Positions 6,684-27,956 of a stretch of DNA of 33,361 bases are shown here, one piece after another; positions within the stretch are counted from its first letter, which is position 1, and every line of letters begins with the position of its first letter. The translations under genes and the position numbers were made by a program. The notes under the pieces were generated by a model. That model was not told where the DNA came from. It saw nothing but the letters and a program-made list of their open reading frames with translations, and made no database searches. The stretch comes from Candidatus Poribacteria bacterium (GTDB taxonomy: Bacteria > Poribacteria > WGA-4E > PCPOR2b), in assembly GCA_022567695.1 (NCBI GenBank), contig JADFGN010000013.1, positions 1-33,361 on the forward strand, read 5' to 3'.

Positions 6684-7411
6684 ATGAAACGCCATTTTGT
6701 TTGGGGGCTTATCGGATTTATATTAAGCGGATTTTTCGGTACATCTTCAATCAGCTTTGCACAAACAGGTGAATGGACAAAAAAAGCCGATATGCCAACG
6801 CATAGGGAGGACTTTGCTGCTGGCGTGGTCAATGGAAAGATTTATGTCATCGGCGGTGGGCATGGAGGAGTCTTCGCGACTGTGGAAGAATACGACCCAG
6901 CGACCGATACATGGGCAATAAAAGCCACATGCCAACGAAAAGGCTCTTTTTCTCCACGAGTGTGGTCAATGACAAGATTTATGTCATCGGCGGTTGGGTA
7001 AATAACGCATATCTTCCGACAGTGGAAGTATACGATCCCGTCATCAATAGATGGAAAAAGAAAGCCGACATGCCCACCGCAAGAGAATTCTTATCCACCA
7101 GCGTTGTGGACGGGAAGATCTATGCAGTCGGAGGAAGATCTAATCTGAGGGACACTATTGCGACTGTGGAAGTGTACGATACCAGTCAAGACACATGGAC
7201 CGAGGCACCCGATATGCCCACGGCAAGAAGGGGTTTGTCAACCGCTGTGGTGAAGGGTCGAATTTATGCCATTGGGGGAAAGGTTGGTATGCGTGGAGAA
7301 GGGATTCCGACGGTCGAAGTCTATGACACCGATTTGGGCGTCAAAGCGAAAGGAAAGCTTGCCACCCTGTGGGGCAAAATCAAATCTGAAGCTAAGGTGA
7401 ATTTACGTTGA
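6684..7411 (+). pseudogene. Secreted Kelch-repeat protein, apparently frameshifted between 6926 and 6927
   Basis: Signal peptide MKRHFVWGLIGFILSGFFGTSSISFA; Kelch repeats (KADMPTxR...VVNGKIYVIGG...VEVYDP...W) split across ORFs 6675..7001 and 6911..7411; one inserted base restores continuity. Confidence 0.88.
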
Positions 7412-22246: not shown

Positions 22247-22684
22247 TTGAAACAGGCTGGTTTAACATCTACACAACTTCTCGTAGTCATTGTTGTAATT
22301 GGTATCGTGGCAGCCGTTTTCTTAGCTCCTCGCATTCTTGGTCAAGCTGGCAAAGTGTTGCAGGCCCAAGCTGCGGAAGAAATCGAAACCATCGGTATCG
22401 CACTAGACCAATACGCGAAAGATAATGGAGATTATCCATCGACTGAGCAAGGGTTGGCTGCACTCTGGGAGAAGCCGGAACTTCCGCCCATTCCAACGAA
22501 CTGGGCTGGACCTTACCTGAAGATTCCTATCACGACAGACCCGTGGGGAAATGAATATGTTTACATTCGCCCTGGCGTTCATGATCGATATGGATACGAT
22601 CTCCTCTCTTTTGGAAGAGACGGCACTGAAGGTGGAACAGGCGACGCCGAAGAGGTCGTTAGCTGGATCCGGCCAGATGAATAG
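22247..22684 (+). CDS. GspG-like type II secretion major-pseudopilin homologue
   Basis: TTG start, AGGGAGG upstream; prepilin-like GLTSTQLLVVIVVIGIVAAVFLAPRI, then DQYAKDNGDYPSTEQGLAALWEKPELPPIPTNWAGPYLKIPITTDPWGNEYVYIRPGVHDRYGYDLLSFGRDGTEGGTGDAEEVVSW. Confidence 0.93.
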   Translation: MKQAGLTSTQLLVVIVVIGIVAAVFLAPRILGQAGKVLQAQAAEEIETIGIALDQYAKDNGDYPSTEQGLAALWEKPELPPIPTNWAGPYLKIPITTDPWGNEYVYIRPGVHDRYGYDLLSFGRDGTEGGTGDAEEVVSWIRPDE

Positions 22685-27164: not shown

Positions 27165-27956
27165 TTAACGACCTTTAATTTGTCCCCAAGTGGTAGCGAG
27201 TTTGTCTTTCGCATCAACGGCAAGCGTCTCATTCATCATTCTCTCAATGTCCGCTCCAGAGAGCGCGTAATTAGCAAGCGTCACTTCGTCGATGCGTCCT
27301 TGGAAGAATCGAGGGCAGCAACCTGCATTTTCGCCACCGATTTTGATATTTTCTCGATTGCTCCTTCCGATTCCGCCCTGCTTGATGATGCTTGCGTCCT
27401 TTTTACCGTTGATGTAGAAGTTTATTTCTTTGCCGTCCCAAACTACGGCAACGTGTGACCATTCTTTTATAGGCACCTTCTCACTTGATAGGTGGTATCC
27501 GGGGACTGCGGTTTCGTAGAAATAGTAGGCAATGCTACCACCGTTCGGCTCAAGCTGCATGTAGTACGATAGCTTAAAGAAAATAGTAAACTTATCCCCG
27601 GGCGGTTCGTTGGGATAAACCCAAGCCGCCATTGTCAGTGCTTCGTCGATGTCCACTTCGTCAGAGTGCGGAATCTCGATATACTGTGCACTTCCAACTT
27701 TGCCTCCAAATTCCAAGGCGTCACCGGAAATCCCTTCCGCCCACTTGACGTTGCCGGTAAATGTGCCAACTAGCCCATCAGTCGCATCTTCGGTTTCTTT
27801 GCCCTTCCCTTCGTCAAAATGCCAGATGTACATTTTTTTGCCAAGCTGTTTGACATTTCCTTTACCGCCAGCAGCAAAGCTAGCTTGACAAACGAACATC
27901 ATCGCAAAGATTAAAATTGCGAGATAGTGCCCACTTTTCAGAACTGTACTTTTCAT
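27165..27956 (-). CDS. Secreted LamG/concanavalin A-like lectin domain protein
   Basis: Signal peptide MKSTVLKSGHYLAILIFAMMFVCQASFA; LamG pattern MYIWHFDEGKGKETEDATDGLVGTFTG...YIEIPHSDEVDIDEALTMAAWVYP...WSHVAVVWDGKEINFYINGKKDAS...GRIDEVTLANYALSGADIERMM. Confidence 0.92.
   Translation of the reverse strand: MKSTVLKSGHYLAILIFAMMFVCQASFAAGGKGNVKQLGKKMYIWHFDEGKGKETEDATDGLVGTFTGNVKWAEGISGDALEFGGKVGSAQYIEIPHSDEVDIDEALTMAAWVYPNEPPGDKFTIFFKLSYYMQLEPNGGSIAYYFYETAVPGYHLSSEKVPIKEWSHVAVVWDGKEINFYINGKKDASIIKQGGIGRSNRENIKIGGENAGCCPRFFQGRIDEVTLANYALSGADIERMMNETLAVDAKDKLATTWGQIKGR

Follow-up and report, generated by a model that had tools for sequence, protein, structure and literature searches.

Two unrelated proteins of the window end in a common peptide

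The window, namely the whole stretch of 33,361 nucleotides of Candidatus Poribacteria DNA analyzed in this study, carries two genes, for a LamG protein and a Kelch protein, whose unrelated products share one short C-terminal peptide, hereafter called the tag. The LamG gene (27165..27956, minus strand) encodes a protein of 263 aa, which was shown by its sequence and an AlphaFold2 model to consist of a signal-peptide-like N-terminus MKSTVLKSGHYLAILIFAMMFVCQASFA (27873..27956, minus), a Laminin_G_3 (concanavalin A-like) domain at residues 88-237 (27246..27695, minus; Pfam E 5.3e-27), a low-confidence linker, and the tag. Its full tail is AVDAKDKLATTWGQIKGR, within which the tag core VDAKDKLATTWGQIK occupies 27174..27218 (minus).

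The Kelch gene, on the plus strand, was found in two pieces. The 5' piece (6684..7001), in the frame of the ATG at 6684, encodes the signal-peptide-like sequence MKRHFVWGLIGFILSGFFGTSSISFA and the first Kelch repeat, and the 3' piece (6911..7411), in the frame of 6911, encodes further Kelch repeats and the tag core VKAKGKLATLWGKIK (7340..7384), followed by the eight residues SEAKVNLR and a stop codon at 7409-7411. Comparison of both frames with the repeat unit placed the frame change at 6923..6932 (plus), and thus the window copy represents either a pseudogene or a sequence error. The preliminary description of this DNA had presented it as a Kelch protein with the tag; the tail proved to be real, but the single open frame did not, since the signal peptide and the tail are read in two different frames. 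Relatives carry intact Kelch homologues of 338-387 aa with a signal peptide and a terminal tag or a worn variant of it.

The tag conforms approximately to the consensus V-x-[PA]-x-x-K-L-[AT]-T-T-W-[GA]-x-[ILV]-K, usually followed by 1-5 residues. When the ORF tails of the window were scored with a profile built from tails at other loci, with the Kelch copy excluded, the LamG tail reached 37.2 bits and the Kelch tail 26.6 bits (E ~4e-7), while the third-best ORF reached 3.8 bits. The two cores are identical at 11 of 15 residues, and 6 of these 11 (V, K, L, A, G, and I) are encoded by different synonymous codons, exactly as the preliminary description had stated. Its view that the two proteins are unrelated outside the tag was likewise borne out, one being assigned to Laminin_G_3 and the other being Kelch-like by its repeats and homologues. 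Elsewhere in the window, the translation of an ORF at 22247-22684 (plus) reads like the type II secretion major pseudopilin, and its product is a putative GspG.

Occurrence of the tag in Poribacteria and other genomes

Rarity of the motif in the rest of the genome would, according to the preliminary description, have refuted its proposal. Instead, a search with the LamG tail alone returned 148 matches in the window's own genome, and a phylum-wide search with a profile built from 36 tails (profile A2) found the tag in all 85 Poribacteria genomes, representing 22 of 22 genera and all 10 taxonomic families, with 29 to at least 104 scored matches and up to 248 candidates per genome. The complete poribacterial chromosome OX638316.1 (G080) contains at least 150 tag matches. 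In 2.4 Mb of this chromosome, in which genes and signal peptides were called with crude scripts and not with Prodigal or SignalP, the tag ends 88 of 2130 called genes; five shuffled proteomes of the same region gave 2 hits in total, i.e., a chance level of ~0.4 per proteome versus the 88 observed.

A scan of GTDB genomes with a degenerate DNA pattern recovered, among the matches listed, almost only Candidatus Poribacteria. Metagenome-assembled genomes (MAGs) labeled 'Deltaproteobacteria', 'Thermoprotei', and 'Pseudomonadota' contained one, three, and five copies, respectively, and the copies listed for them sit on one or two small contigs; such a pattern makes mis-binning likelier than real spread. 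A 'Clostridia' hit showed no profile match. In a further phylum, one genome (G086) gave a single hit on a 3.8-kb contig, and 147 further genomes of that phylum lacked the tag. Among the genomes tested, the tag is restricted to Poribacteria. The five matches in the 'Pseudomonadota' MAG (G085, 1.9 Mb; loci L054, L300, and L301) reflect either mis-binning or transfer; three tagged proteins of this MAG, 341-364 aa in length, have signal-peptide-like starts and matched no Pfam family.

Most tagged proteins have predicted signal peptides and end in the tag

Among 190 occurrences at loci fetched by the pattern or tail searches, the motif lies no more than 12 residues from the stop codon in 189, in most of which the stop follows 2-4 residues beyond the last K. 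Likewise, 93 of the 96 profile hits of at least 4 bits on OX638316.1 fall within 12 residues of the C-terminal end, and the residues beyond the last K vary freely. The motif is accordingly a C-terminal feature and not an internal one, the latter having been named at the outset as a ground for refutation. The one clear exception was found in the window's own genome (locus L020:1423-2418, plus), where a signal peptide is directly followed by the tag and then by a protease-like protein with a HEIGHGLSQAHF motif; this protein gave no Pfam match.

The co-occurrence with signal peptides, proposed from the two window genes, was also evident in the 2.4 Mb, albeit by crude prediction: a strict signal peptide was detected in 72 of 88 tagged versus 499 of 2042 untagged genes, and a looser, signal-peptide-like N-terminus in 84 of the 88, only 2 being lipoprotein-like. 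Tagged proteins in this region have a median length of 264 aa, and 41 of the 82 signal-peptide proteins of 250-300 aa are tagged. Because the tagged proteins have signal peptides, a role as a cargo peptide for bacterial microcompartments or encapsulins was ruled out.

Carrier families are diverse

Across the genomes searched, the tagged proteins are mostly of sugar-binding or propeller type. By homology, the tagged genes of the complete chromosome form 26 families, including 15 singletons. A Pfam search of 84 tagged proteins assigned Laminin_G_3 to 41, with smaller counts for 3-keto-disaccharide hydrolase (DUF1080-like), CBM9, F5/8C, NPCBM, CBM4_9, and others; PD40 propellers, Kelch proteins, and lamin-tail-domain (LTD) proteins are also tagged. 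Families are for the most part tagged in full; the tag was present on 41 of 41 LamG, 7 of 7 LTD, and 10 of 17 PD40-like proteins, and at least 5 of the 7 untagged PD40-like proteins end in a divergent form of it. The Pfam LamG model stops at residue 237 of 263, about 10 residues ahead of the tag, and no Pfam model covers the tail of the LamG protein. This position outside the LamG model, together with the 26 families, shows that no known LamG or Kelch domain normally includes the tag and that the domains upstream of it are diverse.

Tagged fusions of an ECF sigma factor with a Kelch propeller were also observed, three in the window's own genome (L286:1712-3583, L287:897-2759, and L288:1232-2728, all minus) and one in genome G016 (L285). 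Their order is Sigma70_r2 and r4, one apparent membrane pass, an extracytoplasmic Kelch propeller, and the terminal tag.

The peptide itself is conserved

Tagged genes are often tandem neighbors, with 21 adjacent pairs observed versus 3.6 expected, and hence duplication has spread some of them. Such an arrangement would also fit a functionless relic, left by shared ancestry or by recent copying of DNA between paralogues. This explanation is, however, very improbable, considering that the tag occurs on 26 unrelated families of one chromosome and in all 10 taxonomic families, and that third codon positions are randomized while the residues are conserved, which contradicts a relic. Where two tails share a residue, the codons differ in 63.6% of cases, versus 66.4% expected from random genome usage; the randomized third positions indicate that selection acts on the tag peptide itself. 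As a general cause of the similarity, recent copying of DNA is excluded, and the peptide is conserved, in agreement with the earlier suggestion of selection at the protein level.

Among 252 distinct DNA tails, W was invariant (252/252) and V, K, L, T, G, and K were nearly fixed, where the search pattern itself required W and residue classes at other positions. That exact residues are maintained on unrelated folds points to a partner that recognizes them. An AlphaFold2 model of the LamG protein built with 80 relatives gave pLDDT values mostly >90 for the lectin domain, <50 for residues 247-252, and ~54 for the tail, which was modeled as a helix of correspondingly low confidence. The low-pLDDT linker ahead of the tail suggests that the tag is probably separate from the lectin fold. 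A second model, of a CBM9 protein with 8 sequences, was too poor to use (mean pLDDT 58). A short conserved peptide on a flexible linker, attached to many unrelated folds, as observed here, is what would be expected of a docking peptide bound by a receptor.

As an alternative, the tag could be an amphipathic segment adhering to membrane surfaces with no protein receptor, in line with the placement of L, W, and I/L at i, i+4, and i+7, the flanking lysines, and the low-confidence helix of the model. We consider this improbable, since T-T-W-G and both K are kept as identities rather than as classes, and the calculated helical moment is modest and no higher than the strand moment.

The tag differs from known C-terminal sorting signals

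None of the 84 tagged proteins matched the NCBIfam CTERM models (MYXO-CTERM, GlyGly-CTERM, and others) at E ≤ 0.1, and none of the papers searched prints the motif (LATTWG, LTTTWG). A profile search of the PDB yielded a sole match of 10 residues in 8dj2, which was attributed to chance; no solved structure contains the tag. MYXO-CTERM of Myxococcota is a tripartite signal, the first motif of which contains an invariant Cys, and is the substrate of an intramembrane protease, myxosortase (PMC11980579). MYXO-CTERM resembles the tag in being a phylum-wide C-terminal label on dozens of unrelated exported proteins, whereas the tag has neither the Cys nor a hydrophobic segment. PEP-CTERM, which combines a membrane helix with a basic end and is paired with exosortase (PMC1569441), is likewise a short C-terminal homology region on unrelated exported proteins, and similar reasoning led to both; the tag, in contrast, has neither the membrane helix nor the basic end. 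Indeed, the hydrophobic helix and basic cluster of the PEP-CTERM type were absent from the tags, the tails of which mostly end 1-5 residues past the last K, and no LPXTG-type motif or membrane helix was found in them. Judged by its sequence, the tag appears to be a C-terminal sorting label of a known general kind, but without the membrane helix that defines the PEP and MYXO labels.

These features bear on the possibility that the tag marks proteins for processing or turnover, being cut or exchanged by a periplasmic protease or a sortase-like enzyme. While the C-terminal placement is typical of such signals and the free variation beyond the last K would be compatible with one, the membrane helix or basic end of exosortase, rhombosortase, and myxosortase substrates is lacking, and the exosortase family (PF09721) was missing from three (G022, G080, and G002) of the four Poribacteria genomes tested, so that we regard processing as quite improbable. 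The window's own genome does encode a PF09721 member (G000:C677:6921-7697, plus; E 1.9e-58).

Type IX tails and a SprA-like translocon in the same genomes

A 2014 single-cell study of Poribacteria reported T9SS-like tails, but no secretion machinery or Por structural genes (PMC3909097). In this study, four Poribacteria genomes were found to encode a SprA/Sov-like translocon, each with a single ORF of 2129-2300 aa. In G080, it lies at 1481073-1487819 of OX638316.1 (L220:1073-7819, minus) and scored 140.9 bits (E 2.7e-41) against TIGR04189, under the curated cut-off of 200; the corresponding genes elsewhere are located at C1:1482193 in G022, C368:51422 in G002, and C143:6245 in G000. These genomes also have 49-78 TIGR04183 tails each.

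The main rival to docking holds that the tag directs export across the outer membrane, where the SprA-like translocon would recognize it as a shorter substitute for the type IX C-terminal domain. In support of this reading, the genomes possess a SprA/Sov homologue of ~2200 aa, albeit one scoring below the cut-off, and the TIGR04183 tails are C-terminal signals in use there; both labels are, moreover, C-terminal, borne by signal-peptide proteins, and present in the same genomes. The type IX label, however, spans ~72 positions, ends like GVYFYTLTAGDFTATRKMLIRK, and is carried by long proteins (median 878 aa versus 264 aa for tagged ones), and the two sets do not overlap: the 72-position TIGR04183 model matched 0 of 84 tagged proteins even at E ≤ 0.1, and 0 of 29 T9SS-tail genes in the 2.4 Mb bear the tag. 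In addition, an inner-membrane sigma factor and a tag at a mature N-terminus are poor fits to cargo read from its C-terminus. Export through a SprA-like translocon thus seems unlikely, although less so than the other alternatives.

Proposed docking function

On balance, we favor, with moderate confidence, the reading that the tag is a short (15-20 residue) C-terminal peptide for docking or sorting, recognized by a putative receptor of the cell envelope. Given their signal peptides, tagged proteins would be exported by Sec via a normal signal peptide, and the exported modules would fold as small lectin-like or propeller units, leaving the tag on a flexible linker. A dedicated envelope receptor may then bind the conserved residues K-L-[AT]-T-T-W-G-x-[IL]-K, presumably non-covalently and without cleavage, and would keep 100 or more distinct modules together in one place, probably on the cell surface or on the outer membrane's periplasmic face.

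As the ECF sigma-Kelch proteins should stay in the inner membrane, the tag would have a use in the periplasm, or at least be recognized there. Together with the N-terminal copy of L020, their architecture would speak for docking rather than for a secretion signal that must be C-terminal to be recognized; the N-terminal case is a single gene, and the strong bias to the last few residues would also fit an export signal. Dockerins, modules of ~60-70 residues with calcium-binding repeats, gather different carbohydrate-binding proteins at one scaffold. Such scaffold-docking modules are like the role proposed for the tag, which differs in having 15-20 residues and no calcium-binding repeats.

In a broader and more tentative form, to which we give somewhat less than even credence, docking would amount to a phylum-wide localization system, in which one envelope receptor reads a 15-residue terminal tag lacking a membrane helix and collects at least 100 lectin-like or propeller proteins per cell, while the tagged membrane-bound ECF sigma factors signal receptor occupancy to transcription. 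The tag looks like a previously undescribed address label for the whole sponge-associated phylum Poribacteria, and it bears on how these bacteria, abundant in marine sponges, display proteins to their host. Borne by about 4% of all genes and half of the small exported proteins, it offers a direct handle: sequence alone suffices to predict a set of exported proteins, and the receptor can be sought with a short bait peptide.

No receptor was found; all that the neighborhoods of tagged genes yielded was a link, in some places, to UnbV/ASPIC and TPR proteins. At 8 of 10 scattered loci, a UnbV/ASPIC FG-GAP protein is encoded no more than two genes away from a tagged gene (p 1.4e-6), often on the same strand, with tight spacing, and beside TPR proteins. 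In 8-kb windows near tags in other genomes, UnbV/ASPIC was present in 12 of 115, versus roughly 4% expected, and TPR in 21 of 115. Since most tagged genes are without these neighbors, they are leads rather than proof. Near tagged genes, no clear enrichment was seen for the phyH, Gfo/Idh, and sulfatase families. On the G080 chromosome, recurrent groups consisting of TPR, UnbV/ASPIC FG-GAP, and one or two tagged genes were observed at ~126 kb and at 1.16, 1.78, 1.955, 2.168, and 2.395 Mb.
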